From: Prevotellaceae bacterium KH2P17
GTDB taxonomy: Bacteria > Bacteroidota > Bacteroidia > Bacteroidales > Bacteroidaceae
Assembly: GCA_900199655.1 (NCBI GenBank)
Contig: FZRE01000001.1
Span: forward strand, 248,001-312,000
DNA length: 64,000 nt
Direction: 5' to 3'
This document shows positions 25,539 through 41,957 of the stretch, one piece after another. Within the stretch, counting starts at the first letter, position 1. Every line of letters begins with the position of its first letter. A program made the position numbers and the translations under genes. Under the pieces are notes generated by a model that saw only the letters and a program-made list of their open reading frames with translations, did no database searches and was not told the DNA's origin.

Positions 25539-25584
25539 CGAATAAATCTTGAAACAACGACGCTTGAGGAAACGATTTTTTACT

Positions 25585-25716
25585 AATTGAGAATTGAAAG
25601 TTGACAATTGATAATTATGATTGGTCGTAATTGAGAATTGAAAATTGACAATTGAGAATGATGATTGGCTGGAATTGAGAATTGAAAGTTGACAATTGAG
25701 AATGATGATTGGCTTT
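25585..25716. repeat. Three tandem copies of a 44-bp AT-rich repeat
   Basis: Units start at 25585, 25629 and 25673 with AATTGAGAATTGAAAGTTGA, differing at a few positions. Nothing codes here. Together with palindrome copy 2 at 25853 it fills most of the gap between cysE and the activase gene. Confidence 0.9.
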
Positions 25717-25852
25717 TTATTTGAGGTGCGGAATGAATAAGAAAAGGCTGCTTTTAGGTTTTTCAACCTGCAAAGCACTCCTTTCAGTACTGCAAAACAC
25801 ATCCTGCCAAGTTCCTGTGAGCGGCGGATTGAGGTGTTAAAGATATGCTTCA

Positions 25853-25924
25853 GGAACTTTCGACAAGTGTCGCACGATTGTGTGACAGGTGTCGAATATA
25901 TGTGCGACACTTGTCGAAAGTTCC
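25853..25924. repeat. Interspersed palindromic repeat, copy 2 of 7
   Basis: Arms GGAACTTTCGACAAGTGTCG(CAC) at 25853-25875 and the exact complement at 25902-25924. Flanks (ATGCTTCA before, CGAAGGTGCC after) match those of other copies. Confidence 0.9.
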
Positions 25925-26051
25925 CGAAGGTGCCATTTGGCACCGCCGGAGCATGCTGATGATAACCTCGGAGCATGCTGATGAGGGCACGGAAAGAGGC
26001 TTCCGTGCAGGATGATTGAGTTCTGTAAAGATATATGGAGAGTAAATTCCG

Positions 26052-26086
26052 GCCGTTGCCCTGTGCTGTCAGGCACGGGCAACGGC
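26052..26086 (-). terminator. Hairpin overlapping the stop codon of the activase gene
   Basis: GCCGTTGCCC (26052-26061) pairs with GGGCAACGGC (26077-26086) and the stem extends inward with one bulge (TGTGC/GCAC). The stop codon (26069-26071) lies in the loop. The T-rich tail on the - strand is weak (GGAATTTACT). Confidence 0.5.
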
Positions 26087-29000
26087 GGCGTTTCCAGCCT
26101 CGGCGGTGCCGCTTTCGGCTCCCGTGGCGGCACTCTTGAGGAACAGTATCAACCTGTTGGTTACGTTCACGGCACTCACGCCCGAGTCAAAGTCGAGCGA
26201 GAGCAGGTTCAGGTCAGGATAGTCGCGGTGCAGCCTTTTCTCTATTCCCTTGCTTACCACATGGTTGGCAATGCACCCGAAGGGCTGTAGCGAGACGATG
26301 TTCCTTACACCCTCCTTTATCAGTCGGATGATGTCGGCCGGCAGCAGCCATCCTTCGCCGAACTGGGCAGCCATCGACACCACGTTTCCTACGCCGTGGG
26401 CATCGTCAAATATGTTGGTAAATTTCCTGAAATAACGGAACTCCGAGCACGCCTTGTTTACCTTGTTGATGCGCCGCTGGATGAGTTCGTGAATGCCGCG
26501 CACCACCATGTCGGGCACGCGAGAGCAGCTCAGACCCAGGTGCTTCTGCGTGAGCACGTTGACGAACTCCTGCAGGAAGAACGGCGCAAGCAGCGGGGGC
26601 ACCACCTCGAAGCCGCGGGCTATCATCTGGCCGGCCAGGAACTGGTGGGCAAAAGGATTGAACTTGAGGAATATCTCGCCCACAATGCCCACCTGGGGCA
26701 CCTCCCTGTTAACCGTTGCTGCATTGAATTCGGCCGCTGCCCGGCGCAGCAGGTCCATCATGGCGTGCACGTCGTTGGCCCTTATCGGCGCGTCGGCAGC
26801 CTGCATGTAGTGGTCGCGCAGCCGTGCGGCGGTGCCTTCCGTGCCTTCCCGCACGATGCAGGCGTGGTACATCTGCGATATGGCGTCGCCGTAGAGCAGT
26901 GTCATCACTATCATCGAGGCATATTTCACCCATGGTATCTCGAAGCCTTGCTGCTCATTCTCCTCGCCCGCGTTGGTGGCTACTCCAAGCGTAATGAGCG
27001 GCACGTCGGCAAATCCGTTGGCCACCATGGCGCGCTTGATGAGGCCCGCATAGTTGGTGGCGCGGCACTGTCCGCCCGTCTGGCTCATGGCTACGGCCGT
27101 GTTCTTGAGGTCGTAACGCCCCGAGCGCAGTGCCTTCACCACGTCGCCCACGATGAGAGTTGCCGGGTAGCACACCTCGTTATTGGCGTATTCAAGGCCC
27201 AGCCGGGCGCTTTCGTCGTCGCTCTGGGGCAGCACCTCGCAGTCGTAACCGCACAAGTTGATAATTGCGGGCAGCAGTGGAGTGAGGTATTCGGTAAAGT
27301 ACGGGGCCAGTATCTTGCGCCTCACGTCCTGGTTTCCGAACACTCGCGTGGCTCTGAGCGGCTGCGCCTGGCGTGCCGGGGCTTCGTCTTTCTTGGCTTT
27401 CAGGCTCTCTATGAGCGAGCGTACGCGCAGCTTCAGGCTGCCGATGTTGCTCACGTCGTCAATCTTGAGCAGTGTAAACGGCTTGCCGTGGCGGCTCAGT
27501 ATGTCGCGCACTTCGTCCTGGATGAAGGCGTCGGGGCCGCATCCAAAGCTCGTCATCTGCACAAAGTGCACGTCGTCCGGCTGCAGGGCGGCCCACTGCC
27601 CGGCCTTTACAATGCGGTTCATGTAGGCCCACTGCTTCACGAGATAGGTCTCTCCGGAGTCGGTACTCAGGTCACCGCGCACCATGTCGTCGCTTATCAC
27701 GTCCACTCCCAGTGCCGCTATCATCTCCGAGAGCTTGTGTTGTATGAGCGGGTCGGTATGGTATGGCCGGCCTGCCAGCACGATGGTGAGGCGTCCCTGG
27801 CGCCTGCTTTCGGCGCGTATCTCCTCACATTTCTGCCTCAAACGTACCGTGTACTGCCGCTGGGCGGCCACAGCGCGGTCGAAGGCGGCGTTTATCACGC
27901 TCCGTGCTACGCCCAGTCCTTTGAGGTAAACGGTAACTTGCTTCTTCAAGAGTTTGGGGTTCGCGAAGTTGATAACGGGCGAGTCGAGGGGTATCTTGGG
28001 CTCCATGGCGCTGCGTATCACGTCGGAGTAGGCCGACACAATGGGGCAGTTGTAGGAGTTCATGGTGCGTTCGTCGTCGTTGTGTTCGTAGACCACGTAT
28101 GGCATCAGTATGCGGTCGGCCTTCTGCTCCAGCTCACGGATGTGGCTGTGCACCAGCTTCGCGGGGAAACAAATGTTGTCGCTCATGACCGTATGCAGTG
28201 CTCCCTCGTAGTTGGTGAAATTGGACGGCGAGCTCAACACGACCCGGAAGCCGGCCTGCTGCATGAGCGTGTGCCAGAAAGGATAGTCCTCGTACATGTT
28301 CAGAACGCGCGGAATGCCGATGCGCAGCTGTCCTTCCTTCGGCTTGTCCGCTTCGTCCGGCGTTCTTTCTTCATCGAACAGCAGGTGGTACTTGTACGGG
28401 TAAATATTCTCGCCCTTAACCTTTTGCCTGCCGTAATTGTTGAATACGCGCTCGCACTTGTTGCCAGAATAGAACTTGCGGCCGCCCCCGAACCGGTACA
28501 TTGTTACGTAGCAGCGGTTCTCGCAGCCCTTGCACTGCAGGTTGCGGGTCTGGAACGAGGCGCCGTCGAGCAGCATCTCGAGCGTTACGGCGCCGGCTCC
28601 GGTCTCGCGGCTTGCATCCGGTTGGGCCAGCGCATGCAGTGCGCAGCCGTATGCGCCCATCATTTCGGGCATGTTGCTGCGGGCCACCTTGGCGCCCGTA
28701 AGCAGCTCGAAGGCGCGCACCACGGCATCGTTGCGCATGGTGCCGCCCTGCACCACGATGTTTGCTCCCAAGGTGTCGTGGCCTTGCAGTTTAAGAACTT
28801 TGTACAGGCAGTTCTTCACCACCGAGTATGCCAGTCCCGCCGAGATGTCTGCTATGCTTGCTCCCTCGCGCAAGACCTGCTTCACCTTGGAGTTCATGAA
28901 CACCGTGCAGCGCGTTCCGAGGTCGCAGGGAGAGGGCGCGGTGCAGGCTATGTTGGCAAAGTCTTGTATCTGGTAGCCCAGGTTGTTGGCAAAAGTCTGG

Positions 29001-30397
29001 AGGAAAGTGCCGCACCCCGAGGAGCATGCTTCATTGAGTTCCATGCGTACAACGGCCCCGCGGTCAACGAAGATGGCCTTCATGTCCTGCCCGCCGATGT
29101 CGAGGATGAAGGTAACTCCGGGCATCAGGCTGGCTGCGGCCTGGTAATGAGCCATGGTTTCTATGATGCCCGAGCCCAGGTTAAAGGCCGACTTGATGAG
29201 CTCTTCGCCGTAACCGGTGGAGCAGCTCCCCACTACCGCCAGCTCGCAACCGGCCTGCCGGGCCTCCTGCTGCATCTTCTCGAGCCCGTTCTTGACGGCC
29301 TGGATGGGGTTGCCAAGGTTCGATGTGTAGTATGAAAAGAGGATATCGTGCCCCTTGACATCGTCCGGCCGGCTGCCGGAGGCATCAAGTGCGATGATTT
29401 TAGTGGTCGTTGAGCCGCTGTCGATGCCGATAACAACGGGCTGCCTGCCCGCCTTCATGGGCTGTACCTGCATGGCGTACTGCTGCTTGGAGGCTGTCCA
29501 GGCGCGGTGCTCGTCTTCGTTGTCGAAGAGCGGAGCCAGGTCGCTGTGCCATGAGAGCTTGCGTTTGGTGTCTATGAGCTTGCGTAGATGGGACAGGGTC
29601 ACCGTTTCCTGCTTCTCGCTGCTGTGCAGGGCGCATCCCACTGCAGGTATCAGGTTGCTCCGGTTGCTTACGATGAAGTCCTTCTCGTCCAGCTTCAGAT
29701 AGTCGGCAAAGGCCTTGCGCAGGGCCGGAAGGAACGTAAGCGGACCGCCGCAGAGCAGGATGGGCGGCGTAAAGTCGCATCCGTGCGACAGCGTAGTGAC
29801 TGTTTGAACGGCGATGGAGTGGAAGATACTGGCCGCAATGTCACTCTCCGGAAGGTTTCGGGACATCAGGTTCTGGATGTCGGTCTTGGCAAACACGCCG
29901 CAGCGTGCAGCCATGGGATAGATGTGAGTGGCCTGCATGGCGAGCTCGCTCATGCGGTTGTTCTCCGTTCCCATTAGCACACTCATCTGGTCGAGGAATG
30001 CTCCGGTGCCGCCGGCGCAGTTCCCGTTCATGCGTAACTCGGTGTTGCGGCCGTTGAAGAACACAACTTTGGCATCCTCGCCCCCTATGTCGATGAGGGC
30101 TTTAGCTTCCGGATGGCGCCGCCGGGCGTAGATAGTGGCGGCCACAACCTCCTGTACGAACTCGGCCCCGAGCTGCTCCGCCGTCGACATGCCTACCGAG
30201 CCGGTAACGCACAGGCTCACCTCAACGTCGCCGAACTGCCCCTGCAACTCGTCGATATAGCGCGACACGAGCTCGCCAACACGCGCGTTGTGCCGCTCGT
30301 AGCGTGAATAGACAATGTTATCGTTGGCGTCTAAAGCGACTATTTTTGCTGTAGTAGAACCAACATCGAGACCTAATCGCAGGCGTGAGTTGTACAT
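26069..30397 (-). CDS. Acyl-CoA dehydratase activase-type protein (two BadF/BcrAD ATPase domains plus DUF2229-type and dehydratase-like regions)
   Basis: 1442 residues from the ATG at 30397. Two ASKHA ATPase modules are visible: LDVGSTTAK at residues 10-18 and IGIDSGSTTTK near 330-340, each followed by the IDIGGEDAK/LDIGGQDMK and CAGGTGAF/CSSGCGTF signatures of 2-hydroxyglutaryl-CoA dehydratase activators, whose cysteines hold a shared 4Fe-4S cluster. A Cys-rich CKGCENRCYV segment and a DUF2229/CoA-substrate-specific region follow, and the C-terminal part resembles the dehydratase partner. Such giant fused proteins are common in anaerobes, but their reaction is not established; ATP-driven electron transfer is inferred from the domains. 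It is transcribed alone, divergently from the GIN lipoprotein gene. Confidence 0.88.
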   Translation of the reverse strand: MYNSRLRLGLDVGSTTAKIVALDANDNIVYSRYERHNARVGELVSRYIDELQGQFGDVEVSLCVTGSVGMSTAEQLGAEFVQEVVAATIYARRRHPEAKALIDIGGEDAKVVFFNGRNTELRMNGNCAGGTGAFLDQMSVLMGTENNRMSELAMQATHIYPMAARCGVFAKTDIQNLMSRNLPESDIAASIFHSIAVQTVTTLSHGCDFTPPILLCGGPLTFLPALRKAFADYLKLDEKDFIVSNRSNLIPAVGCALHSSEKQETVTLSHLRKLIDTKRKLSWHSDLAPLFDNEDEHRAWTASKQQYAMQVQPMKAGRQPVVIGIDSGSTTTKIIALDASGSRPDDVKGHDILFSYYTSNLGNPIQAVKNGLEKMQQEARQAGCELAVVGSCSTGYGEELIKSAFNLGSGIIETMAHYQAAASLMPGVTFILDIGGQDMKAIFVDRGAVVRMELNEACSSGCGTFLQTFANNLGYQIQDFANIACTAPSPCDLGTRCTVFMNSKVKQVLREGASIADISAGLAYSVVKNCLYKVLKLQGHDTLGANIVVQGGTMRNDAVVRAFELLTGAKVARSNMPEMMGAYGCALHALAQPDASRETGAGAVTLEMLLDGASFQTRNLQCKGCENRCYVTMYRFGGGRKFYSGNKCERVFNNYGRQKVKGENIYPYKYHLLFDEERTPDEADKPKEGQLRIGIPRVLNMYEDYPFWHTLMQQAGFRVVLSSPSNFTNYEGALHTVMSDNICFPAKLVHSHIRELEQKADRILMPYVVYEHNDDERTMNSYNCPIVSAYSDVIRSAMEPKIPLDSPVINFANPKLLKKQVTVYLKGLGVARSVINAAFDRAVAAQRQYTVRLRQKCEEIRAESRRQGRLTIVLAGRPYHTDPLIQHKLSEMIAALGVDVISDDMVRGDLSTDSGETYLVKQWAYMNRIVKAGQWAALQPDDVHFVQMTSFGCGPDAFIQDEVRDILSRHGKPFTLLKIDDVSNIGSLKLRVRSLIESLKAKKDEAPARQAQPLRATRVFGNQDVRRKILAPYFTEYLTPLLPAIINLCGYDCEVLPQSDDESARLGLEYANNEVCYPATLIVGDVVKALRSGRYDLKNTAVAMSQTGGQCRATNYAGLIKRAMVANGFADVPLITLGVATNAGEENEQQGFEIPWVKYASMIVMTLLYGDAISQMYHACIVREGTEGTAARLRDHYMQAADAPIRANDVHAMMDLLRRAAAEFNAATVNREVPQVGIVGEIFLKFNPFAHQFLAGQMIARGFEVVPPLLAPFFLQEFVNVLTQKHLGLSCSRVPDMVVRGIHELIQRRINKVNKACSEFRYFRKFTNIFDDAHGVGNVVSMAAQFGEGWLLPADIIRLIKEGVRNIVSLQPFGCIANHVVSKGIEKRLHRDYPDLNLLSLDFDSGVSAVNVTNRLILFLKSAATGAESGTAEAGNAAVARA

Positions 30398-30421
30398 TCT
30401 GAAATCTCCTATGTTTCTATG

Positions 30422-30429
30422 CAAAAATA
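30422..30429 (-). promoter_or_regulatory. -7 box for the activase gene
   Basis: CAAAAATA on the + strand reads TATTTTTG on the - strand, 25 bp upstream of the ATG at 30397. Confidence 0.6.
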
Positions 30430-30534
30430 CGAAGAATAACTTAGACGTCGAAATATTTTTGCGTTTTTTACACCTCTCTGCAACTTTTAGAGCACGTTTT
30501 GCGTCAAACGGACAGCAACAAAACCTGTAAGAAG

Positions 30535-31236
30535 ATGAAGAAAACAACCTGTCTGCTGGCCCTTGTGGCCGTGGCAACGATGGCATCGTGCCGCGTAAGG
30601 ACCGTGAACCATGACAATGGGCCCAAAGTGGAACGTGTAGTAAAGGTGGTGCCGTTTGAAAGGATAAAGGCCGAAACTGCCTGCGACGTCTATTATACGC
30701 AAGGAGATGTGCCGAGTGTGAAGATTGTCGGTGACGAGCGTGACGTGAAGAACGTGGTCATATCGGCCCGTAACGGCGAACTGAACATCCGCAGCGCCAT
30801 GCGGCAACGCCTCCTGAACCTGAGCCGCCAGCACCCGGTAAAGGTCTACCTTACCTCGCCCGACCTCATCGAAGTAGACTTCCGCGGCGTGGGCGGCTTC
30901 TATGCCGACGGCCGGATAGATACCGACACGCTGGCCGTAGCGCTGCGCGGCGTGGGCGACGTGAAGCTGGAAGACGTTATCTGCGACCATATCAAGGTGC
31001 GGCTGGAGGGCCCCGGCGACATTGACATCGACAAGCTGCAGGCCCAGCAGGCAGATGTAACCCTGCGCGGCGTGGGCGACATTGACATCAACTTCGTGAA
31101 CTCGGGCAATGTGAACTGCACGCTCTACGGCGTGGGCGACATCTCGCTCAAGGGCAACGTGCGCACTTTTAGCAAGGACAAGAAAGGAACGGGCGACATA
31201 GACACCGACGGACTGGTCGTGGCACGCCCCAATTGA
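30535..31236 (+). CDS. GIN-domain (DUF2807) lipoprotein
   Basis: 233 residues from the ATG at 30535, which gives a clean lipoprotein signal (LLALVAVATMASCR). The body is a right-handed beta-helix of the GIN/DUF2807 type, with a repeating glycine turn seen five times: FRGVGGF, LRGVGDV, LEGPGDI, LRGVGDI, LYGVGDI. These proteins sit in the periplasm or on the outer membrane. They are often seen near envelope or stress genes, and no biochemical role is proven. An earlier in-frame ATG at 30499 would put charged residues before the signal and is unlikely. Confidence 0.85.
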   Translation: MKKTTCLLALVAVATMASCRVRTVNHDNGPKVERVVKVVPFERIKAETACDVYYTQGDVPSVKIVGDERDVKNVVISARNGELNIRSAMRQRLLNLSRQHPVKVYLTSPDLIEVDFRGVGGFYADGRIDTDTLAVALRGVGDVKLEDVICDHIKVRLEGPGDIDIDKLQAQQADVTLRGVGDIDINFVNSGNVNCTLYGVGDISLKGNVRTFSKDKKGTGDIDTDGLVVARPN

Positions 31237-31255
31237 GGGTGCTGAAGCTATGCTT

Positions 31256-31331
31256 CGCGAACTTTCGACACTTGTCGCACGATTGTGTGACAAGTGTCGA
31301 ATTCATGTGCGACAAGTGTCGAAAGTTCACG
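31256..31331. repeat. Interspersed palindromic repeat, copy 3 of 7
   Basis: Arms CGCGAACTTTCGACACTTGT(CGCAC) at 31256-31280 and its near complement at 31307-31331. The 20-bp upstream flank GAGGGTGCTGAAGCTATGCT also precedes copy 1, and GTGCC-TTT-CGGCAC follows. Confidence 0.9.
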
Positions 31332-31503
31332 GATGTGCCTTTCGGCACCTTTTCGGTTATCTTCCAACCACCCCGGAGTGGGGCTGTTTCACCGCCGCTT
31401 GGTCTTGTCCGCGGGCTGCATCGCCGCAAGACGGAGCGCCCGCAGGCAGCGGCCGGCAAAGTGAAATTAAACTTAAAAGTTTCATCTTTCCGTGAGAATT
31501 GTG

Positions 31504-31511
31504 TATCTTTG
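31504..31511 (+). promoter_or_regulatory. -7 box for the first lipid head-group operon
   Basis: TATCTTTG fits TAnnTTTG and lies 29 bp before the ATG at 31541. Confidence 0.6.
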
Positions 31512-31540
31512 TGTGACCTTATACGGAAAGAACGAAACAA

Positions 31541-32266
31541 ATGAACTATGCAATCATAGCTGCCGGCGCCGGTTCCAGGCTGGCAGCCGAGGGCGTAAGG
31601 CAACCCAAGCCGCTGGTTGAGGTGGGGGGCGAGTGCCTGATAGACCGACTCATCCGCATCTTCATGCAGAACGACGCCCACCAGATTAGCGTTATCTGCA
31701 ACCAGGAGGCCCATGCAGTGAGCCGGCACCTGCTCTCCGTCAAGGAGAACGGCCTGCAGGGGAGGCCCGTACCGCTGCGTTTCATCGCCAAGAGCACGCC
31801 CAGCTCCATGCACAGTCTGTACGAGTTGCAGCGGATTATGGACGGCGGGCCGTTCGTACTCACAACAGTAGACACGGTGTTCAGTGCAGGCGAGTTCGGC
31901 AGGTTTGTCCAATCGTTCGCCGAAACATTGCAGCAAGGCCTCGACGGACTGATGGGCGTAACCCCGTACGTGGACGATGAGCGGCCGCTTTACGTCGAAA
32001 CGACCGCCGAGGGCAGGGTTGCCGGCTTCCGGGATGACAGCACCCGCGGCTGCACCCGTGTCTCTGCAGGCATCTACGGGCTCGGTTCCGCCACGCTGCC
32101 CACACTCCGCGCCTGCGTTGAGGGCGGCGAGAGCCGCCTGCGCAGCTATCAGCGGGCGCTGCTGCGCGACGGCTGCCGGCTGCGGGCATACACCTTCGGC
32201 AAGGTGTTCGACATCGACCACGCCTCGGATATAGCCAAGGCAGAACTCTTTCTGGCACGCGAATGA
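31541..32266 (+). CDS. Nucleotidyltransferase (NTP-transferase fold), first gene of a lipid head-group operon
   Basis: 241 residues. The N-terminus YAIIAAGAGSRLAAEGVRQP-KPL carries the G-x-G-x-R and K-P nucleotide-binding motifs, and TTVDTVF supplies a metal-binding Asp. The closing FDIDHASDIAKAE is typical of small-molecule phosphate nucleotidyltransferases. The stop overlaps the next start (ATGA), and a CDP-alcohol phosphotransferase lies two genes on. The likely job is therefore to make a CDP-activated polar head group, possibly CDP-inositol. The substrate is inferred from context only. Confidence 0.82.
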   Translation: MNYAIIAAGAGSRLAAEGVRQPKPLVEVGGECLIDRLIRIFMQNDAHQISVICNQEAHAVSRHLLSVKENGLQGRPVPLRFIAKSTPSSMHSLYELQRIMDGGPFVLTTVDTVFSAGEFGRFVQSFAETLQQGLDGLMGVTPYVDDERPLYVETTAEGRVAGFRDDSTRGCTRVSAGIYGLGSATLPTLRACVEGGESRLRSYQRALLRDGCRLRAYTFGKVFDIDHASDIAKAELFLARE

Positions 32267-33090
32267 GACGACACATCATAGCCATACAGCGCGATGCGGG
32301 CTTCTCGCCCAACTCCGTAGACCGTGACCAGGCCATCCTGCAGGCCGTAGCCGAAGGGCTGGAGGGTGATGTCAGCGTGGTTCCGGAGCTGGAGCTGGCG
32401 GCCTGCAGCACGGCCCACGTCTACCTGTCCATGGCTCGCAGCCCGCAGGCTCTGGCGCTGCTGGAGCAGCGGGAGCGCGAAGGGGCGCTCGTGATTAACA
32501 GCACCCGGGGCGTGAGGGCGTGCAGCCGCAAGACCATAGACGGCCTCATGCGCCGCTGCGGCATACCGATGCCGCCGCCGTACACCGCCGGCAGCTGCTG
32601 GCTGAAGCGTGGTGAAGGCTACGTGCAGAGCCGCGACGACGTGGTGTTCTGCCGCGACGAGGCCGAACTTGCTGCCGCCCGCCGCCGCTTCCGGGCACGA
32701 GGCATCGGCGAGACGGTGGTCAGCACTCACGTGGCAGGCGACGTTATCAAGTTCTACGGCGTAGCAGGAGGCTTCTTCCGTTACTTCTATCCGGCCGACG
32801 ACGGTCTCTCCAAGTTCGGCAACGAGCGTCATAACGGCCGGGCGCACCATTACCCCTTCGCCGCCGCTGACCTGCAGCACGACGTCCAACGGCTTGCCCG
32901 GCTGGCGCAGGTAGAGGTCTATGGCGGCGATGCCATCGTGGGTGCCGACGGCCGCTACTATCTTATCGACTTCAATGACTGGCCCAGTTTCTCGCCTTGT
33001 TTTCAAGAGGCAGCCCGTGCCATTGTACATCTCATCAACTCGAAAATGCACCATGACAGATTTCAAGCAACTCTTACACAACTCTTTTAA
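32263..33090 (+). CDS. ATP-grasp-like protein in the lipid head-group operon
   Basis: 275 residues. I assign an ATP-grasp fold from the C-terminal pattern VEVYGGDAIVGADGRYYLID-FNDWPSF (metal and Asn ligands near residues 237-244), the TCWLKR-like lysine segment (SCWLKRGEGYV) and the VINSTRGVRACSRK region near residue 77. The final pattern recalls RimK-type ligases and also inositol-polyphosphate 5/6-kinases. It could ligate an amino acid or phosphorylate a polyol. The start overlaps the upstream stop by 4 bp and the 3' end overlaps the next gene by 38 bp, showing tight coupling. The reaction is unknown. Confidence 0.65.
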   Translation: MRRHIIAIQRDAGFSPNSVDRDQAILQAVAEGLEGDVSVVPELELAACSTAHVYLSMARSPQALALLEQREREGALVINSTRGVRACSRKTIDGLMRRCGIPMPPPYTAGSCWLKRGEGYVQSRDDVVFCRDEAELAAARRRFRARGIGETVVSTHVAGDVIKFYGVAGGFFRYFYPADDGLSKFGNERHNGRAHHYPFAAADLQHDVQRLARLAQVEVYGGDAIVGADGRYYLIDFNDWPSFSPCFQEAARAIVHLINSKMHHDRFQATLTQLF

Positions 33091-34000
33091 GTCCAACGAG
33101 ACCGAAGAATGGTTAGACATACACTTCACGAGGCCCGTAGGCTTGGTGTTTGCCATGCTGTGGCAACGCCTCGGAGTCAGGCCCAATGCGGTCACGCTGC
33201 TGTCCATCGTGCTGGGTGCTGCGGCCGGTTACATGTTCTACTTTACCGATCTGGCGCACAATCTGGCCGGTGTGGCGCTGCTGGTTCTGGCCAATCTCTG
33301 CGATTCTACCGACGGTCAGCTGGCCCGCCTCACCCATCAGACCTCGGCGCTGGGCCGTGCGCTCGACGGCTTCTCGGGCGAGTTGTGGTTCTTCTGCATC
33401 TATCTGGCGCTGGCATTGCGGCTCGACGGGCAGTTCATGCCTTACACCGACGTGGAGTGGGGCATCTGGATATGGGCGCTGGCGGCCGTCTCCGGGCTTA
33501 TTTGTCATTCGTCTCAAAGCTCGCTGAGCGATTATTACAGGCAGATACACCTCTACTTCCTGCAAGGCAACAAGGAGCTCGACAGCTATCGCAGTCAGCT
33601 TGCAGTCTACGGACAGACGCCCCGCGAGGCCGTCGTGCTGCGCCTTTACCATTACTTCTACGCCCATTACTGCAAGCGGCAGGAGGCTCGCACGCCTGCT
33701 TTTCAGCAGTTCTTCGCCCTCTGGCAGCAGGCTGCGGCCGGTCCGCAGGGGACTGCCGGCACCGCCGCAGTGCGTGAGCAGTTTCTCCGGGGTAGTCGAC
33801 GGCTGATACCGTACACCAACATCCTCACCTTTAACGTGCGTGCACTGGTGCTTTATGTCACCTGTCTGGCCAACTTCCCGTGGGTGTATTTCTTCTTTGA
33901 AATTACCGTCCTGCACGCCCTCTACATCTATATGCACAAGCAGCACGAGGCCTTGTGCAGGCGCATGAGCGAACAGCTGACCGGTCAATCCAGGCAATGA
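33053..34000 (+). CDS. CDP-alcohol phosphotransferase, with a variant active-site motif
   Basis: 315 residues from the ATG at 33053. The family signature appears as DSTDGQLARLTHQTSALGRA then LDGFSGE: the first three aspartates and the G/AR positions are kept, but the fourth Asp position is Gly followed by Glu. About six transmembrane helices follow. Enzymes of this family move a phosphoalcohol from a CDP carrier to an acceptor in the inner membrane. With the nucleotidyltransferase upstream, a pathway that activates a head group and then transfers it is plausible. A large hydrophilic insert (about residues 195-250) separates the last helices. Confidence 0.82.
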   Translation: MTDFKQLLHNSFKSNETEEWLDIHFTRPVGLVFAMLWQRLGVRPNAVTLLSIVLGAAAGYMFYFTDLAHNLAGVALLVLANLCDSTDGQLARLTHQTSALGRALDGFSGELWFFCIYLALALRLDGQFMPYTDVEWGIWIWALAAVSGLICHSSQSSLSDYYRQIHLYFLQGNKELDSYRSQLAVYGQTPREAVVLRLYHYFYAHYCKRQEARTPAFQQFFALWQQAAAGPQGTAGTAAVREQFLRGSRRLIPYTNILTFNVRALVLYVTCLANFPWVYFFFEITVLHALYIYMHKQHEALCRRMSEQLTGQSRQ

Positions 34001-34707
34001 TGATAAAAGGATATATTTTCGATTATGGCGGAACGATAGATACCGACGGCTGCCATTGGGCAAAGATGCTGTGGCATGCGTATGAGCGCCACTGCCCGAG
34101 CATACGGGAAGCCGACTTCCGCGAGGCCTATGTCTACACCGAACGTGCGTTGGGCAGGCAGCCCATCATACAAAGTGAGTACACTTTCCACCGCACCCTG
34201 GACATCAAACTGCGCCTGCAGCTGTCTTATTTGCTGGAGAAAGGCATCCTGACCTGTACCGGCAAGGCTGCCGCCACGTTGCGCCAGGACCTGCTAAGCG
34301 ACCTTTACGCCAGGGTGCAGGCTACCTGCAAGGCCAGCCGGAGCGTGCTGCTGAGGCTGAAAAGGGATTGTCCGCTGGTGCTGGTGAGCAACTTCTACGG
34401 CAATCTGCACGTCGTCTTGCGCGAGTTCGGGCTTGATGACGTGTTCCTGAGTGTGGTGGAATCGGCGCTCGTTGGCGTGAAGAAACCCGACGAACGCATC
34501 TTTCTCCTGGGCGTGCAGCAGTTAGGCGTGCAGCCCGGAGAGGTGATGGTGGTGGGCGACAGCTATGAGAAAGACGTGCTGCCTGCCAAGAAAGCGGGCT
34601 GCCAAGTTACCTGGCTGAAGGGTGAGCAGTGGCTCGAAAGCCTCGCGGAGAATGCTCCCTGCGCGGCCGACAGGGTTATTTCGAGCCTTCAGGAGTTGCT
34701 GCAATGA
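33997..34707 (+). CDS. HAD-superfamily hydrolase
   Basis: 236 residues from the ATG at 33997, overlapping the preceding stop (ATGA). HAD motif I reads FDYGGTIDTDG, with the nucleophile Asp kept but the second Asp of the usual DxD replaced by Gly; motif II is LVSNFYG, the motif III Lys lies in GVKKPDERIF, and motif IV is VVGDSYEKDV. In this operon it may dephosphorylate a lipid or head-group phosphate, but the missing acid/base Asp makes activity uncertain. The 3' end overlaps the convergent PAP2 gene by 32 bp. Confidence 0.8.
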   Translation: MMIKGYIFDYGGTIDTDGCHWAKMLWHAYERHCPSIREADFREAYVYTERALGRQPIIQSEYTFHRTLDIKLRLQLSYLLEKGILTCTGKAAATLRQDLLSDLYARVQATCKASRSVLLRLKRDCPLVLVSNFYGNLHVVLREFGLDDVFLSVVESALVGVKKPDERIFLLGVQQLGVQPGEVMVVGDSYEKDVLPAKKAGCQVTWLKGEQWLESLAENAPCAADRVISSLQELLQ

Positions 34708-35527
34708 AGGCTGCATACCTGTCCAGGCCCCGCCGGATGCAGGGAACGCGGAAGATGACCAGCTCCAGCAGCCCTATTCCTACGATGGCCGTAAGGATGC
34801 CGAGGATAACATCAATCACGTAATGGTGGCCGGTGTACACGGCCGTCCACCATATCCCGATGCAGATAAAGGCAAAAGCAGCCGTCATGCCCTTCGTCCG
34901 CCGGCTTGCAAAAGCATAGATGGTGGTTATTAGCATGTAGGCAGCGTGGAGCGAGGGAACGGCAGCGAACACGTTTGCATTTTCTCCGTAGATTTGATGA
35001 AACACCGGAATGCCGAGCAAACTGTCGAACCTCGCCAGCCCTGCTACGTTGCCCGGGGTGTGCAGAATGGGCTCAAAACCGTAGCTCATGGCGTACCAGG
35101 GCGGGGCTGCGGGATGGATGTAATAGCCGCAGAAGCCTACAAGATTAACGAAAAGGAAAGCTATCGTGAAGCGGAGAAACCACCTGTACTGCCGCTTGAA
35201 GTACAGATAGAAGCTGAAAAACAGCGGCACCGGAACCCAACACAGATAGAAGAGACCCGCCAGAACATCGGCCGCAGCGGCGTGGTGGATGGCAAAATAC
35301 TCGCTCGGAATGAGCCTGCCGCCCGCCGTGCTGATGCCGAAGAGGGCCTTCTCGGCATCGTACAGCCCCTTGACGTCAATGGAGTTGAACTCGTAGTTGG
35401 GCCAAAGCCGCATCCAGTCGTAGGTACATGCGAAGACCACCCACGGCAGAAAAGCCGCCGCAAACTTCCTTGTGGGCTTGGCAACAACCAAGATCACGTA
35501 CAAAAGAACAATGTAAACGCTGTACAT
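34676..35527 (-). CDS. PAP2-superfamily membrane enzyme, AUR1/inositol-phosphorylceramide synthase-like
   Basis: 283 residues from the ATG at 35527. About six transmembrane helices. The lipid phosphatase/transferase motifs are of the AUR1 kind: VPSLHAAY (C2) and YTGHHYVIDVILG (C3, with catalytic His and Asp). In fungi and in Bacteroides such enzymes move phosphoinositol from phosphatidylinositol to ceramide. It is the last gene of a - strand operon with a CDP-alcohol phosphotransferase, a GtrA-like protein and PgpA, a set that I recall as the inositol-lipid cluster of Bacteroides thetaiotaomicron. Substrate is inferred from that resemblance. Confidence 0.85.
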   Translation of the reverse strand: MYSVYIVLLYVILVVAKPTRKFAAAFLPWVVFACTYDWMRLWPNYEFNSIDVKGLYDAEKALFGISTAGGRLIPSEYFAIHHAAAADVLAGLFYLCWVPVPLFFSFYLYFKRQYRWFLRFTIAFLFVNLVGFCGYYIHPAAPPWYAMSYGFEPILHTPGNVAGLARFDSLLGIPVFHQIYGENANVFAAVPSLHAAYMLITTIYAFASRRTKGMTAAFAFICIGIWWTAVYTGHHYVIDVILGILTAIVGIGLLELVIFRVPCIRRGLDRYAAFIAATPEGSK

Positions 35528-35538
35528 CTGCCCCTGTC

Positions 35539-36189
35539 TTACTCCCTGCCTTTTAGTTCCCGATAACAGTGAGCCACTCTCCAGAAAGCTGTGATGTTGG
35601 CCAGCACGGCTATTACCATCATGCCGCCGGCCAGCCACCACAGGTTGGCGGTGCAGCCGCTGACGATGGCCACCACGGCCAGAACCACCACCCGCTCGGG
35701 GCGCTGCATCAGTCCCACCTTGCAGTCTATGTCCAGTCCCTCGGCTCTTGCGCGCACATAGCTCACCATGATGGAGCCAACCATCGCCGCAAAGCTCGTT
35801 ACCCCCATCCAGAACCAGTTGTTTTCGAGGAATACGAGGGTAACACCAAAGAGCGTGATGAGCTCGCTGTAGCGGTCGAGAGTAGAGTCCCAGAGCGCTC
35901 CGAAGGCAGAAGACATGTTGCCCAGGCGTGCCAATCGGCCGTCCATCATGTCGAACAGTCCGGCAAAGAGGATGATGGCTCCTCCCCAGCCTATAACAGC
36001 GTACGCACTGTCAGCCTGCCCGTCCTTCATCAGCAGGGCTCCCCAGACAAAGAAAGCCGTAGCCACGATGTTGCCGATAAAGCCCAGCGTGGTAACGAGG
36101 TTAGGCGTAAAACCAATCTTTATCATCCCTCTGATGAGCGGATTGATGATGACATATATCACTTTCTGTAAGTAATCTCTGTAATTCAT
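35539..36189 (-). CDS. CDP-alcohol phosphatidyltransferase (phosphatidylinositol-phosphate synthase-like)
   Basis: 216 residues with a complete signature: DMMDGRLARLGNMSSAFGAL followed by WDSTLD, all four aspartates present. About six transmembrane helices. The family condenses CDP-diacylglycerol with an alcohol or alcohol phosphate in the inner membrane. The first residues NYRDYLQKVIYVIINPLIRG and the neighbours (PgpA-like phosphatase, AUR1-like transferase) favour inositol phosphate as acceptor. Its ATG overlaps the GtrA stop by 4 bp, and the AUR1-like gene starts 11 bp downstream. Confidence 0.85.
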   Translation of the reverse strand: MNYRDYLQKVIYVIINPLIRGMIKIGFTPNLVTTLGFIGNIVATAFFVWGALLMKDGQADSAYAVIGWGGAIILFAGLFDMMDGRLARLGNMSSAFGALWDSTLDRYSELITLFGVTLVFLENNWFWMGVTSFAAMVGSIMVSYVRARAEGLDIDCKVGLMQRPERVVVLAVVAIVSGCTANLWWLAGGMMVIAVLANITAFWRVAHCYRELKGRE

Positions 36190-36620
36190 ATATCGTTCTT
36201 GATTTTAATTTCATCCCTTTTCCGGTGGCTCCTGAATACAAAGAGCCGCTGCATCTGGTAATTCCAGAGCACTGCTACTATGATGGAGACGGCTGCCTTG
36301 ATGATGATGAAGCTGATACCCGTAAGTTCAGTGAAGAAGTAAGTGCCGTAGGTGTTGAGTGCTATGCTTACTGTCCACACCAGGAAGTACTTGAGCGCCA
36401 CGTTGCTCTTCTTCTGCGACTGCGACCGGAACACCCAGCGGTAGTTGATGCAGCAGTTGACGATGCCGCCCGACAAGGCTCCCAGGAACGAGGCCAGGGC
36501 ATACCACACGCCGCATACCTGCGCCAGCAGGATGGTGATGCCGAAGTCTGCGGCCGATGCTATGCTCGCCGAAGTCTCCGCCTTGCCAAAAGTCCAGATG
36601 GCGTTCCTTATGTTACCCAT
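36186..36620 (-). CDS. GtrA-family membrane protein
   Basis: 144 residues from the ATG at 36620; the longer open frame upstream is an overlap with pgpA in another frame. Four transmembrane helices with the GtrA pattern (ASAADFGITILLAQVCG, NCCINYRWVFRSQ, LNTYGTYFFTELTG, LWNYQMQRLFVFR). GtrA proteins are thought to help flip polyprenyl-linked sugars. Here it is embedded in a phospholipid operon, overlapping both neighbours, so it may act on the lipid product instead. Confidence 0.85.
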   Translation of the reverse strand: MGNIRNAIWTFGKAETSASIASAADFGITILLAQVCGVWYALASFLGALSGGIVNCCINYRWVFRSQSQKKSNVALKYFLVWTVSIALNTYGTYFFTELTGISFIIIKAAVSIIVAVLWNYQMQRLFVFRSHRKRDEIKIKNDI

Positions 36621-37078
36621 TGCGTCAGCAGTATAACAACCAGCGAGTAGAGGCCGGCCAGAATGTCGTCGGCCATTACCCAGAAAGCCCCCACGCGCCT
36701 GTCGAGGGCGCGGATGCCCAGAGGTTTGGCGATGTCGAAGAAGCGGAAGAGCACAAAAGCCCACAGAGCGAGCGGCCAGCTCAAGGCCGGCACGGCCAGC
36801 AGAGGTATCCACACGCCCACCATCTCGTCTACTACCACCCGCTTGGGGTCGTTGCCCCAGGCCGGCATCAGCCGTGCCGTAGCCCACGTTCCGGCTGCGC
36901 CGAAGACGATGCAGAGCCCCAGCGTGAGGAGAGCGAGTGCCCAGCCTTGCACGAAACAGCCCGCCGCCAGCCATACGAGGGTGGCAAGCAGTGCGCCCGC
37001 AGTTCCCGGTCCCCAAGGCCAGAAGCCACTGCCAAAGCCCGTTCCGATGAGAATCGCAAAAAACGATGGTCGTGTCAT
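36608..37078 (-). CDS. pgpA: Phosphatidylglycerophosphatase A-family protein, candidate phosphatidylinositol-phosphate phosphatase
   Basis: 156 residues from the ATG at 37078; an ATG four codons earlier lies inside the -7 box and is rejected. PgpA motifs are present: GTGFGSGFWPWGPGTAGALL near the N-terminus, DPKRVVVDEMVGVW (DExxG type metal site) and RFFDIAKPLGIRALDR. The enzyme removes the terminal phosphate from phosphatidyl-alcohol phosphates. In an inositol-lipid operon the likely substrate is phosphatidylinositol phosphate, but ordinary phosphatidylglycerophosphate is equally compatible with sequence alone. Confidence 0.87.
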   Translation of the reverse strand: MTRPSFFAILIGTGFGSGFWPWGPGTAGALLATLVWLAAGCFVQGWALALLTLGLCIVFGAAGTWATARLMPAWGNDPKRVVVDEMVGVWIPLLAVPALSWPLALWAFVLFRFFDIAKPLGIRALDRRVGAFWVMADDILAGLYSLVVILLTQWVT

Positions 37079-37087
37079 ACGAATGTG

Positions 37088-37095
37088 CAAAGGTA
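37088..37095 (-). promoter_or_regulatory. -7 box for the pgpA-GtrA-CDP-AP-PAP2 operon
   Basis: CAAAGGTA on the + strand reads TACCTTTG on the - strand. It ends 9 bp before the ATG at 37078, so the mRNA is nearly leaderless. Confidence 0.7.
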
Positions 37096-37188
37096 CTGAA
37101 AATATTCAAGATACGCACACCGAGACGGGAAAAATTCCGAAATTGCGCTTTTTACGCATCCCTCTCAGGGGCTTGAAGACCATGAGCA

Positions 37189-37260
37189 GGAACTTTCGAC
37201 ACTTGTCGCACGATCGTGCGACACCTGTCAAACAATCATGCGACAAGTGTCGAAAGTTCC
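37189..37260. repeat. Interspersed palindromic repeat, copy 4 of 7
   Basis: Arms GGAACTTTCGACACTTGTCG(CA) and complement, with a perfect inner palindrome TGTCGCACGATCGTGCGACA at 37205-37224. It lies between divergent promoters of pgpA and the DUF5686 gene. Confidence 0.9.
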
Positions 37261-37399
37261 CGAAGCATACCTTCATGCACCCCCGACGCCTGCGGCAAGG
37301 AGCCCGGCCGACTGCTCCGCGGAGTGCCTTCCGGCCCCTTTTCTTGCTTCGTAAACACTTAAAAAGCGCAAAAAGTTTTCTTGTGTCGCAACAAATGCT

Positions 37400-37455: not shown

Positions 37456-40002
37456 ATGAAGAAATATATATTGGCGTTACTGGTGTGCATCATCACGTCC
37501 CTGGGTGCAGCCGCTCAGGACAAGATTACCGGCCAGGTAGTTGATGCCGACGATGATTACGCCATCCCTTATGCCAGCGTTTCGTACAAAGGACACCAAG
37601 TAGCAGTGTCGTGTGACGGTGAAGGCCGCTTTGCCATCGACCGTCACGACGGCTGGGTTCTCACGTTCAGTTCCGTGGGATATGCGTCACAGGTGCAGAC
37701 CGTAACGCCCGGCACCAAGACCGTCAAGATAGCTCTCAAGAGCTCGACCAACAAGTTACAGGAGGTTGTCATCAAGTCGCGCCGCGGCCGCTACACGCGT
37801 AAGAACAACCCGGCAGTGGATCTCATGCGCCGTGTGATAGCCGCCAAGAAGCGCACTCACCTGGAGAACCACGACTACTATCAGTACAACAAATATCAGA
37901 AGCTGACCTTCGGCGTCAACGACATCCAGCCCACGGACCTCGAGGAGGGCATTTTCAAGCGCTCGCCCTGGCTGGTAGACTATGTTGAAATGTCGCAGTA
38001 CAACAACAAACTCATTCTGCCGCTCTCGGTGAACGAAACCGTGAGCCAGCACATCTACCGCAAGGAACCCCGCACGGAGAAAGACATTATCAAGGGAGAG
38101 CAGAGCGACGGGCTGAACAACGTTATCCAAACGGGCGAAATACTCAATACAGTTTTGAAGGATGTGTTTACCGACGTGGATATTTACGACGACCACATCC
38201 GCCTGCTCCAGTATCCTTTCACCTCGCCGATTGGCGAGACAGCCATCTCGTTCTACCGCTATTACATCGAAGATACGGTCTACGTAGACCGCGATTTGTG
38301 CTATCACTTGCAGTTCCTGCCCAACAATCAGCAGGATTTCGGCTTCCGTGGAGACCTCTATGTGCTGGCAGACTCGTCGCTGCACGTAAAGCGCTGCGAC
38401 ATGATAATACCCAAGAAGAGCGACGTGAACTTTGTGGAGAACATGAAGATACAGCAGGTTTTCAGCAAACTTCCTAACGGGGAATGGGCGCTTACGACCG
38501 ATGACATGATGGCGGAACTTAAACTCAACAAGTATCTTGCTAAGGCTATCTGCATCCGGACGACACGACTGAGCGACTATGCGTTCGACGAATTGCCCAA
38601 AAACCTGTTCAAGGGAAAGGCCAAGACACGGCGGGAGGTCGACGCGATGGACCGCGACGAGGCCTTCTGGAACCAGTACCGGGCGGTGGAACTCACCAAG
38701 TCGGAGTCGTCCATGGATGCCTTCATCCACCGCATGGAGCAGTCCAAGAACTACAAGTGGCTGCTGGCAGGCGTCAAGGCGCTGGTAGAAAACTACGTTG
38801 AAACATCGGGAACGAAGGAGAACAACAAGTTCGATATCGGCCCCATCAATACCATCGTCTCCTCTAACTTTGTGGACGGGCTGCGTCTCAGGATGAGTGG
38901 AAGGACCACGGCAAGGCTGAATCCGCACCTTTTCTGGACGGGTTTCTACGCTTATGGCACCAAGAGCAGGCGCCATTATTACGGCTCCGAGCTCACTTAC
39001 AGCTTCAACCGGAAGAAGAATGCGTGGTTTGAATTCCCCCAGCAGAGCATCACCTTCGAGTCAAGTTACGATGTCATGTCGCCTGCGGACAAGTTTCTGC
39101 TGCACAACAAGGATAATGCCTTCATGGCATTCCGTACGCAGAAAGTGGAGCAGATGTACCTTTACAACCGCCAGCACCTGCGCTTCAACTTCGAGACTCT
39201 GTGGGGATTGAGCTTCAACGGAGGCATTAAAGCCGAGAGCGACCAGCCTATGGGCGACCTTGTTTTCAGCAAGCTGGCCGACGGCTCCTTAGTTCACAAG
39301 ATACGAACGACCGAAGTTTCGCTCGGCATTAAGTACAGTCCGGGCCAGACCTTTGTAAACACAAAACAGCAGCGCCTGCCCATCAACCTGGATTCTCCGG
39401 AGTTCACGCTTACCCACACCATGGGACTGAAGCACTTCCTCGGCGGACAATACAAGCTCAACTACACCCAGCTGAACATCTACAAGCGCTGGTGGCTGGG
39501 CAGCTGGGGCTACGTTGACACCCATCTCGACGGCGGGGCACAGTGGAACAAGGTGCCTTTCCCGCTGCTCATCATGCCGCCCGTCAACGTAACTTACTTT
39601 GAGTACGAGGGCACCTTCTCACTAATGCGCAACATGGAGTTCCTCAACGACCGCTATGCCTTTTGGTCCATAGCGTGGGATATGAATGGAAAGCTGCTCA
39701 ACCGGATACCGCTCATCAAGCATCTTAAGTGGCGTGAGTACGTTGCCTTCAAAGGTATGTTCGGCCAGCTCACCGACAAGAACAACCCGTTCCTGGCCTC
39801 CAATGCCGCCGACCCGTTGCTTTTCAGCTTCCCGGCAGACTCATACGTCATGGATTCCAAGAAGCCTTACATGGAGATAGTGGCAGGAGTACACAACATC
39901 TTCAAGTTCTTCGGCGTCGATTTTATCCACCGTTTCAACTACAACGAGCACCCGGGAACAAAGAAGAACGGCGTGAGGTTCAGCTTTGCCCTGAGCTTCT
40001 AA
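37456..40002 (+). CDS. DUF5686 outer membrane protein with carboxypeptidase-regulatory-like domain
   Basis: 848 residues. A signal peptide (ILALLVCIITSLGAAAQ) leads into a CarboxypepD_reg-like (CNA-B-like) domain at about residues 25-100 (KITGQVVDADDDYAIPYASV), as in many TonB-dependent proteins, but no plug domain follows. Instead the DUF5686 region runs to the end, with many amphipathic strands and a final Phe (FSFALSF), so a C-terminal outer membrane barrel is likely. Function unknown. Its stop overlaps the convergent DUF190 gene. Confidence 0.88.
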   Translation: MKKYILALLVCIITSLGAAAQDKITGQVVDADDDYAIPYASVSYKGHQVAVSCDGEGRFAIDRHDGWVLTFSSVGYASQVQTVTPGTKTVKIALKSSTNKLQEVVIKSRRGRYTRKNNPAVDLMRRVIAAKKRTHLENHDYYQYNKYQKLTFGVNDIQPTDLEEGIFKRSPWLVDYVEMSQYNNKLILPLSVNETVSQHIYRKEPRTEKDIIKGEQSDGLNNVIQTGEILNTVLKDVFTDVDIYDDHIRLLQYPFTSPIGETAISFYRYYIEDTVYVDRDLCYHLQFLPNNQQDFGFRGDLYVLADSSLHVKRCDMIIPKKSDVNFVENMKIQQVFSKLPNGEWALTTDDMMAELKLNKYLAKAICIRTTRLSDYAFDELPKNLFKGKAKTRREVDAMDRDEAFWNQYRAVELTKSESSMDAFIHRMEQSKNYKWLLAGVKALVENYVETSGTKENNKFDIGPINTIVSSNFVDGLRLRMSGRTTARLNPHLFWTGFYAYGTKSRRHYYGSELTYSFNRKKNAWFEFPQQSITFESSYDVMSPADKFLLHNKDNAFMAFRTQKVEQMYLYNRQHLRFNFETLWGLSFNGGIKAESDQPMGDLVFSKLADGSLVHKIRTTEVSLGIKYSPGQTFVNTKQQRLPINLDSPEFTLTHTMGLKHFLGGQYKLNYTQLNIYKRWWLGSWGYVDTHLDGGAQWNKVPFPLLIMPPVNVTYFEYEGTFSLMRNMEFLNDRYAFWSIAWDMNGKLLNRIPLIKHLKWREYVAFKGMFGQLTDKNNPFLASNAADPLLFSFPADSYVMDSKKPYMEIVAGVHNIFKFFGVDFIHRFNYNEHPGTKKNGVRFSFALSF

Positions 40003-41665: not shown

Positions 41666-41736
41666 CTTTTCGTACCGTTAAAAGGCGCTCCCAGGGGTGC
41701 CGGAATTACCCTCCGGGGGGCTTGAAGATATGCTCC

Positions 41737-41810
41737 TGGAACTTTTGACAGGTGTCGCACGGTCGTGCGACAAGTGTCGAAAGATTGTGCGACACCTGTC
41801 AAAAGTTCCA
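41737..41810. repeat. Interspersed palindromic repeat, copy 5 of 7
   Basis: Arms TGGAACTTTTGACAGGTGTC(GCAC) at 41737-41760 and exact complement at 41787-41810. A short GGGTGTTGGGTGATG minisatellite stretch follows at about 41817-41833. The gap between the LuxR and MBL genes holds nothing else I can support. Confidence 0.88.
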
Positions 41811-41957
41811 GAAGGTGGGGTGTTGGGTGATGAGTGCAGGCACGCAACACCCCGCATACAACCCCCGAGCTGCGTGCAGAGGCTGCATACGGAGAGACCG
41901 ATGTCCGGTGCCTCGGGCTTCCCTATGGCACGTAATGTTGCCCGGAGCCGGCAGCGG

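Follow-up and report, generated by a model that had tools for sequence, protein, structure and literature searches.

We analysed a window of 64,000 nucleotides (positions 248,001 to 312,000 of contig FZRE01000001.1) from Prevotellaceae bacterium KH2P17, whose 3.30-Mb, 99.93%-complete assembly belongs to a Prevotella-type genus. Two four-gene operons in this window, both predicted to build inositol lipids, meet tail to tail. As Table 1 shows, the + operon (31541-34707) encodes a nucleotidyltransferase (NTP), an ATP-grasp enzyme (ATPG), a CDP-alcohol phosphotransferase (CDPp) and a protein of the haloacid-dehalogenase superfamily (HAD), and the − operon (37090-34676) encodes a PgpA-like phosphatase, a GtrA-like membrane protein, a second CDP-alcohol phosphotransferase (CDPm) and an AUR1-like PAP2 protein (AUR). 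All eight reading frames were open at these positions in a coordinate check. Inside either operon, adjacent genes share 4 to 38 bp or leave an 11-bp gap, and the 3' ends of HAD and AUR overlap by 32 bp. A sequence-only reading of the window had called the same genes in the same convergent arrangement, and these calls were confirmed by the open frames, by Pfam and NCBIfam matches and, for ATPG, by a structural model and a fold search. The DUF5686 gene is divergent from the PgpA gene and is probably of the BT_1527 kind, which the text on the inositol-lipid clusters in PMC9246714 reports near both of them.

Table 1. Genes of the two operons, border genes of the site and the dispersed repeat, with positions in the window.
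Feature	Position	Strand	Basis or remark
NTP, sugar/polyol-phosphate nucleotidyltransferase, predicted CTP:inositol-phosphate cytidylyltransferase	31541..32266	+	PF00483, E 1e-9
ATPG, ATP-grasp enzyme, kinase or ligase	32263..33090	+	AlphaFold2 model and fold search; without a Pfam/NCBIfam match of its own
CDPp, CDP-alcohol phosphotransferase of the + operon	33053..34000	+	PF01066, 1.3e-11, scanned from 33029
HAD, haloacid-dehalogenase-superfamily protein, Gly at nucleophile+2	33997..34707	+	PF00702, 4.8e-17; motif FDYGGT
AUR, AUR1-like PAP2, predicted phosphoinositol (PI)-dihydroceramide synthase (BT_1522 type)	34676..35527	−	PF14378, 4e-19; NF052609, 408 bits, cut-off 480
CDPm, CDP-alcohol phosphotransferase, predicted phosphatidylinositol phosphate (PIP) synthase (BT_1523 type)	35539..36189	−	NF052561 PIPSynBT1523, 275 bits, curated cut-off 350
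GtrA-like membrane protein (BT_1524 type)	36186..36620	−	PF04138, 3e-16, scanned from 36656; ATG at 36620 taken as start
PgpA-like phosphatase, predicted PIP phosphatase (BT_1525 type)	36608..37090	−	PF04608, 7e-36; TTG at 37090, ATG at 37078
DUF5686 protein, carboxypeptidase-regulatory N-terminus, right border of site	37456..40002	+	PF18939, 3.9e-48; PF13715, 1e-14
DUF2807 protein, left border of site	30499..31236	+	PF10988, 3e-32
Palindromic repeat, 7 places in the window	31238-31349, 25833-25944, 37169-37280, 41718-41829, near 7641, 51632, 57039		

The − operon was recognised in the sequence-only reading as the gene set of the Bacteroides thetaiotaomicron inositol-lipid cluster, and this held. 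It shares with BT_1522-BT_1526 (PMC9246714) the AUR1-like, PIP synthase-type, GtrA and PgpA-type families, the canonical PIP synthase motif and the neighbour of the BT_1527 kind, and the AUR1-like, PIP synthase-type and PgpA-type genes that define the cluster (BT_1522/23/25) stand together in the window. CDPm carries the full motif DxxDGxxARx8GxxxDxxxD, the fourth Asp of which is kept in 41/41 open reading frames (ORFs) of related AUR stretches that have the first part of the motif, ORFs of the + type being excluded. The AUR protein shows the motifs PSLH and GHHYVID. In B. thetaiotaomicron, PI-dihydroceramide was lost when BT_1522, BT_1523, BT_1525 or BT_1526 was deleted (Heaver 2022, PMC9246714), and deletion of the GtrA gene left the inositol lipids unaltered as judged by thin-layer chromatography (PMC9246714). 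The window differs from that cluster in two respects: locus and genome lack inositol-3-phosphate synthase (BT_1526), the usual companion of the three defining genes, and a second, unrelated cassette abuts the operon tail to tail. A serine palmitoyltransferase is encoded in the genome (L209, 650 bits, curated cut-off 640), which makes ceramide acceptors plausible.

The + operon has the genes of the alternative cluster described in PMC9246714 (BVU_RS13095/13105/13115), namely an NTP transferase, a CDP-alcohol phosphotransferase and a HAD protein in a single operon, with the same kind of neighbour. In that paper the cluster stands as an alternative route, yet to be tested, that occurs in B. vulgatus and is frequent in Prevotella. 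It is the second route to which the sequence-only reading had correctly pointed, and it is still termed predicted in a 2023 review (PMC10191378). PI-dihydroceramide was detected in B. vulgatus and P. veroralis, both given as lacking the B. thetaiotaomicron set in that account (PMC9246714), and inositol dihydroceramide was reported in a paper on P. copri lipids (PMC10865984). Among the literature matches listed, with preprints outside PMC and most subscription journals left out, no title is a test of the alternative route, and the one match on ATP-grasp proteins and inositol carries a title on another subject.

To describe the make-up of the + operon, we used loci centred on the ATP-grasp gene in named genomes (the best 80 of 580), drawn from Prevotella, Hoylesella, Hallella, Segatella, Marseilla and uncultured kin; counts over these 80 stretches are lower bounds owing to contig ends. 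The companions of the ATP-grasp gene were HAD (77), NTP (77), a CDP-alcohol phosphotransferase (76), DUF5686 (68), inositol-3-phosphate synthase (31) and DUF2807 (31), and since the set recurs across named genomes it is not a chance grouping. No gene of the AUR operon occurred in any of the 80 stretches. The ATP-grasp enzyme is thus a near-constant fourth member of the set, which is new here; the term does not occur in the text of PMC9246714. A further difference is that, according to that paper, the B. vulgatus enzyme came from a search with the full canonical CDP-alcohol motif, whereas the motif of the window CDPp is non-canonical. The alternative cluster is described as usually lying near a synthase, with exceptions such as P. 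copri named (PMC9246714); 49/80 stretches had no synthase in view, and the window cassette both lacks one and stands next to a rival cassette of the B. thetaiotaomicron type.

Gene fusions tie the four + genes together. In a survey of 96 loci, with four genomes counted twice, NTP was fused to ATPG in L101, L117, L134, L156 and L173, ATPG to HAD in L164, and CDPp to HAD in L151 (which is L097 again), L172 and L174. ATPG-HAD and NTP-CDPp form separate pairs in some loci; the synthase follows ATPG-HAD in L158 and L182 and is missing in genome G054. The + operon may thus be made of two modules. Two loci, L217 (G195) and L232 (G136), contain distant ATPG and CDPp pairs (31-44% identity) whose stretches of 15-17 kb show neither NTP nor HAD, possibly a further variant of the route. 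Locus L211 (G113) contains an NTP-ATPG-HAD set, and CDPp was not found in its 17 kb. NTP and CDPp each weakly match one half of NF041135, the Thermococcales model of IPCT-DIPPS, the enzyme of the CDP-inositol route in Archaeoglobus and Thermococcales (2.5e-6 for NTP, over positions 4-106 of 419 in the cytidylyltransferase half of this NCBIfam model, and 2.4e-5 for CDPp), and the CDPp model weakly matches the A. fulgidus IPCT-DIPPS structure 4mnd (E 0.033). In contrast to IPCT-DIPPS, the window proteins are separate, the motif deviates and the predicted product is a lipid rather than a solute.

Two of the + enzymes lack canonical catalytic residues. The fourth Asp of the CDP-alcohol motif was absent from its canonical place (+4) in all CDPp sequences (0/91 rows, 0/87 distinct sequences), and Asp or Glu stood at +5 in 83/91 rows (80/87 distinct); the window CDPp has Gly at +4 and Glu at +5. 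Its model (pLDDT 94.6) gave AF2299 as the top Foldseek match (2e-3), followed by A. fulgidus IPCT-DIPPS and PIP synthases, none of them below 1e-3. In the phosphatase motif of HAD proteins, DxDx(T/V), the Asp at nucleophile+2 is the acid/base residue. This position was Gly in all 94 rows (90 distinct), and Asp9, Lys163, Asp188 and Asp193 were conserved in 94/94. With these residues missing, a standard mechanism for CDPp, and a role of HAD as lipid synthase or ordinary phosphatase, need revision. The published three-enzyme scheme (CDP-inositol, PI-diacylglycerol (PI-DAG), HAD as lipid synthase) appears incomplete or chemically wrong, because catalytic residues are missing and the ATP-grasp enzyme is near-constant. 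HAD as an AUR1-like lipid synthase, a suggestion found in PMC9246714, was judged unlikely, as a crude hydropathy count, rough enough to give CDPp just 2 membrane segments, gives HAD none, and as HAD lacks the acid/base Asp. The sequence-only reading had proposed the + operon as an inositol head-group route; the synthase in 31/80 stretches and its co-occurrence with ATPG in the genus, given below, support this. The non-canonical residues of two + enzymes, the near-constancy of ATPG and the usual alternation of the two cassettes lay beyond what that reading could see.

Over 249 genomes of the genus, in which incomplete assemblies inflate absences and relatedness is uncorrected in all Fisher tests, ATPG was found in 138, AUR in 49 and the synthase in 150. 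ATPG and AUR occurred together in 8/249, where about 27 would be expected (p 6e-10). A new observation is that the two cassettes avoid each other and normally occur as alternatives. A survey of 49 AUR stretches from 48 other genomes found the + operon within the stretch in 2/49 (G006 and G269); these stretches contained DUF5686 (36), RlmL, SAT or DUF2807 (13), DUF2807 itself (4) and the synthase (12). The gene order was RlmL-SAT-DUF2807-[AUR operon]-DUF5686-c16-c12 in G176, RlmL-SAT-BadF-DUF2807-[NTP operon]-DUF5686 in G148 and RlmL-SAT-BadF-DUF2807-[NTP operon][AUR operon]-DUF5686-c16-c12 in the window, where c16 and c12 denote another two conserved neighbours of the site. BadF is our label for a 1505-aa ORF (26069-30586), putatively CoA-enzyme-activase-like; this ORF was present in 4/80 + stretches.

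A tree of DUF5686 with 65 rows (the window, 30 of AUR type and 34 of NTP type, the dual genome G006 being among the latter) required 4 type changes, compared with a mean of 21 when types were shuffled. DUF5686 may serve the lipid made by the adjoining cassette, because its type changes along with the cassette. The window DUF5686 grouped with AUR-type rows (support 99), and the window appears to be an AUR-type site that also holds the + cassette. In the simplest history, an AUR-type site took in the + cassette or recombination between the operons joined the two site types. Among the other dual genomes, G006 carries the two cassettes at the site in a different order, G269 has a layout like that of the window with HAD absent between CDPp and AUR and a contig break inside AUR, and G029, G046, G230 and G251 have the cassettes on separate contigs. 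The sequence-only reading had left the choice between redundancy and two distinct lipids; exchange at one site argues for equivalent products.

Inositol-3-phosphate synthase is absent from the whole genome, with no PF01658 and no PF07994 match in the 99.93%-complete assembly, while the same searches matched in 6 and 7 of 14 control genomes, respectively. The sequence-only reading had noted the absence beside the − operon, and the genome-wide search it proposed extends this to the organism. Judged by PF01658, the synthase was lacking in 6/8 dual genomes (this one included), 24/130 genomes with ATPG only and 10/41 with AUR only (dual against ATPG-only, p 0.0014), and it was not found in 16/49 AUR genomes, again including this one. 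Restricted to AUR genomes at least 90% complete, it was lacking in 5/6 dual genomes and in 2/17 without ATPG (p 0.003); neither ATPG nor the synthase was found in ten AUR genomes, of which two reach at least 90% completeness. Synthase-less genomes listed at 99% completeness were G012, G016 (a single contig), G029, G046 and G230. ATPG genomes had the synthase in 108/138 cases, compared with 42/111 of the others (p 9e-11). That most ATPG genomes have the synthase as well rules out its simple replacement as the main role of ATPG. The case for ATPG as a cause of synthase loss is weak, given the uncorrected relatedness and the ten AUR genomes with neither. Outside the genus ATPG was present in 6/40 genomes, all six of which also have the synthase, in keeping with the co-occurrence. 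A tree of 55 + operons, for which synthase-less rows were deliberately fetched, shows at least 10 switches of synthase status, with 12 under parsimony and a mean of 18.5 after shuffling; the + operon has thus often persisted where the synthase is gone.

Without a synthase, either inositol is salvaged or the head group differs. The synthase-less pattern fits salvage of inositol or its phosphates, and the organism probably takes inositol from its surroundings. The genome has one histidine-phosphatase gene (PF00328, 35.8 bits, cut-off 23.6), which no NCBIfam model names; as a source of inositol or inositol phosphate from phytate it is a possible, unproven candidate. Since 30/138 ATPG carriers have no synthase, a substantial minority of Prevotella-type species may depend on inositol from the diet, the host or neighbours.

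We consider it fairly probable that the locus is a doubly occupied inositol-lipid site with both routes running on salvaged inositol. The site between RlmL/SAT/DUF2807 and DUF5686 often has either the B. thetaiotaomicron-type or the alternative cassette, and in the window it has both. In the − route, CDPm would combine CDP-DAG with inositol phosphate to give PIP-DAG, PgpA would strip a phosphate to leave PI-DAG, and AUR would move the phosphoinositol onto dihydroceramide. In the + route, NTP would convert inositol phosphate to CDP-inositol and CDPp would transfer phosphoinositol to a lipid hydroxyl, of dihydroceramide or DAG. ATPG would most likely act directly before NTP, as an inositol or inositol-phosphate kinase, and HAD would handle a phosphate on an intermediate or on the lipid. 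Inositol or its phosphates would be supplied externally, and with a kinase both operons could work on salvaged material. The genes, the common site, the mutual avoidance, the serine palmitoyltransferase and the lack of a synthase and of motif residues are observed, and each reaction, the sequence of steps and the salvage are inferred. Both routes are of known kinds; what is new is that a swap site is doubly occupied, that the synthase is absent, that an ATP-grasp enzyme is a near-constant member and that catalytic residues are non-canonical.

Several points weigh against this reading. The eight dual genomes are not independent: the operon tree groups G029, G046, G230 and G251 in a single clade, and in G136 only the distant ATPG is present, on another contig than AUR and in a 17-kb stretch that shows neither NTP nor HAD. 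CDPp is without the canonical fourth Asp and HAD without the canonical acid/base Asp. HAD is kept in 27/30 synthase-less ATPG genomes and is therefore not merely a processor of the synthase product. AUR and CDPm both score under their curated cut-offs; for NF052609, named phosphoinositol dihydroceramide synthase, the cut-off was passed by 0/249 genomes of the genus and so does not discriminate in it. The lack of a synthase counts against inositol lipids unless inositol is salvaged: deletion of the B. thetaiotaomicron synthase abolished inositol lipids, and inositol uptake by that species was described as very small (PMC9246714). All six ATPG genomes outside the genus keep the synthase, which speaks against salvage. 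For ATPG, the NCBIfam rimK_fam signal appears closer than that of Pfam PF05770, as detailed below. The two-route account of the sequence-only reading was largely right and is partly supported, the production of inositol lipids by the organism itself being a prediction.

The window ATPG matched no Pfam or NCBIfam family, had no match to PF05770 at its curated cut-off and gave no Pfam match even at E values up to 10. Its AlphaFold2 model, built from 69 sequences (pLDDT 94.8), has the complete ATP-grasp fold of ITPK and RimK/LysX enzymes, although neither group's family model matches the protein. Foldseek placed D-Ala-D-Ala ligase first (9e-10), followed by LysX/ArgX, with RimK listed and ITPK1 chains at rank 31 (4.3e-8). 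VIA gave Z scores of 19.1 and 18.5 for RimK and LysX/ArgX, respectively; ITPK chains were not among its 50 rows, which is no evidence against a kinase. When the 69 family members were scanned with NCBIfam, rimK_fam (TIGR00768) matched 47 at E up to 1 (best 9e-8), the window protein not being one of them, MptN matched 32, and no ITPK model was among the matches listed. With Pfam, PF05770 (Ins134_P3_kin) matched 9/69 weakly (best 0.0088) and RimK 1/69, and a search with six ATPG proteins gave two weak PF14397 matches and nothing else. PDB profile search A1 gave the graspetide ligase PsnB (0.0019) and ITPK4 (0.0039), and search A2 gave ITPK4 (0.018), an unrelated glyoxalase (0.028), ITPK1 (0.07) and PsnB (0.16). 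The ITPK alignments were short and C-terminal and the PsnB alignment was long. Arg89 and Lys163 of the family align to Lys and Arg in PsnB, and ITPK enzymes presumably have Arg and Lys at these places.

ATPG might instead be a RimK-like ligase that joins a carboxylate, for example an amino acid, to an inositol intermediate or partner, in which case the + product would be a decorated inositol lipid unlike the − product. The rimK_fam and MptN matches, the VIA scores and the PsnB match with profile A1 point this way. The ATP-grasp fold, however, is common to ligases and kinases, Ins134_P3_kin outnumbers RimK among the Pfam matches, profile A2 puts ITPK4 first, and the two family residues Arg89 and Lys163 differ from those of PsnB. 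In addition, species with the alternative cluster were reported with plain PI-dihydroceramide. Because ATPG fuses to the nucleotidyltransferase and the published lipids are plain PI-dihydroceramide, we lean towards a kinase at roughly even chances, with a ligase nearly as likely. Fkp and HldE are parallels for a fusion of kinase and nucleotidyltransferase. A decorated + lipid is a tentative alternative, short of even odds.

A replacement of one cassette by the other may also be under way, both making the same lipid, one newly arrived and one to be lost. Mutual avoidance and the shared site are consistent with this, as are the AUR-type DUF5686 of the window despite its + cassette, the window-like layout of G269 without HAD between CDPp and AUR (with its contig break inside AUR), and the long end branch of the window + cassette on the operon tree (0.99 against a median of 0.46), which comes with an unusual letter make-up. 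The window + cassette, however, showed no decay. At the conserved columns of its relatives it deviated in 3/72 positions for NTP, 0/45 for ATPG, 4/86 for CDPp (two gap columns uncounted) and 1/56 for HAD, all four counts lying within the 95th percentile of relatives. Decay through redundancy was thus not seen, and we read the cassette as being under constraint. The presence of both cassettes, on separate contigs, in G029, G046 and G230 within one clade indicates that coexistence can last, and we regard an ongoing replacement as doubtful.

It is improbable that the + operon has moved to another head-group alcohol in synthase-less genomes, with inositol used by the − operon only or by neither: the missing synthase here and in 30/138 ATPG genomes, and deviations of the window NTP at conserved residues 200, 202 and 203, would agree with such a change, but synthase-less operons are scattered among synthase-bearing ones on the tree (at least 10 changes), so that repeated synthase loss fits better than repeated change of substrate, and the PIP synthase of the − operon with its canonical motif also requires inositol phosphate.

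Within the favoured account of two inositol-lipid routes, there is a small chance that the two operons make inositol lipids of identical mass and different stereochemistry. The − route would form the lipid ester on a free hydroxyl of inositol phosphate and then remove the original phosphate, and in the + route the original phosphate would itself become the lipid linkage. The product of the synthase is 1D-myo-inositol 3-phosphate. If both routes used the same inositol phosphate, the linkages would lie at ring positions that differ and are related as mirror images, provided that ATPG and HAD do not move the phosphate. Such a difference, if true, would explain why the + operon has kinase-like and phosphatase-like proteins, why ATPG-HAD stands with the synthase while NTP-CDPp lies elsewhere in the stretch in L158 and L182, and why the lipids would be indistinguishable by mass spectrometry. 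B. thetaiotaomicron without inositol lipids was altered in its capsule, in its resistance to an antimicrobial peptide and in its fitness in mice (PMC9246714). A genome with both routes offers a natural setting in which to tell redundant routes from routes to different lipids.

A palindromic repeat of about 90-110 nt (core CGACA..TGTCG, RNA fold z-score -9.3) is dispersed over intergenic regions and has copies just upstream of each operon. Genome-wide, 40 places were scored of 198 candidates. It resembles repetitive extragenic palindromes (REP) or miniature inverted-repeat transposable elements (MITE). Inverted repeats bracketing both operons as a mobile unit were ruled out, since the repeat is dispersed over the genome. 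A 44-nt AT-rich unit occurs in three tandem copies at 25584-25715, the copies being 86-89% identical to the first. The G+C content was 60.8% in the + operon, 56.6% in the − operon and 55.6% in the window.

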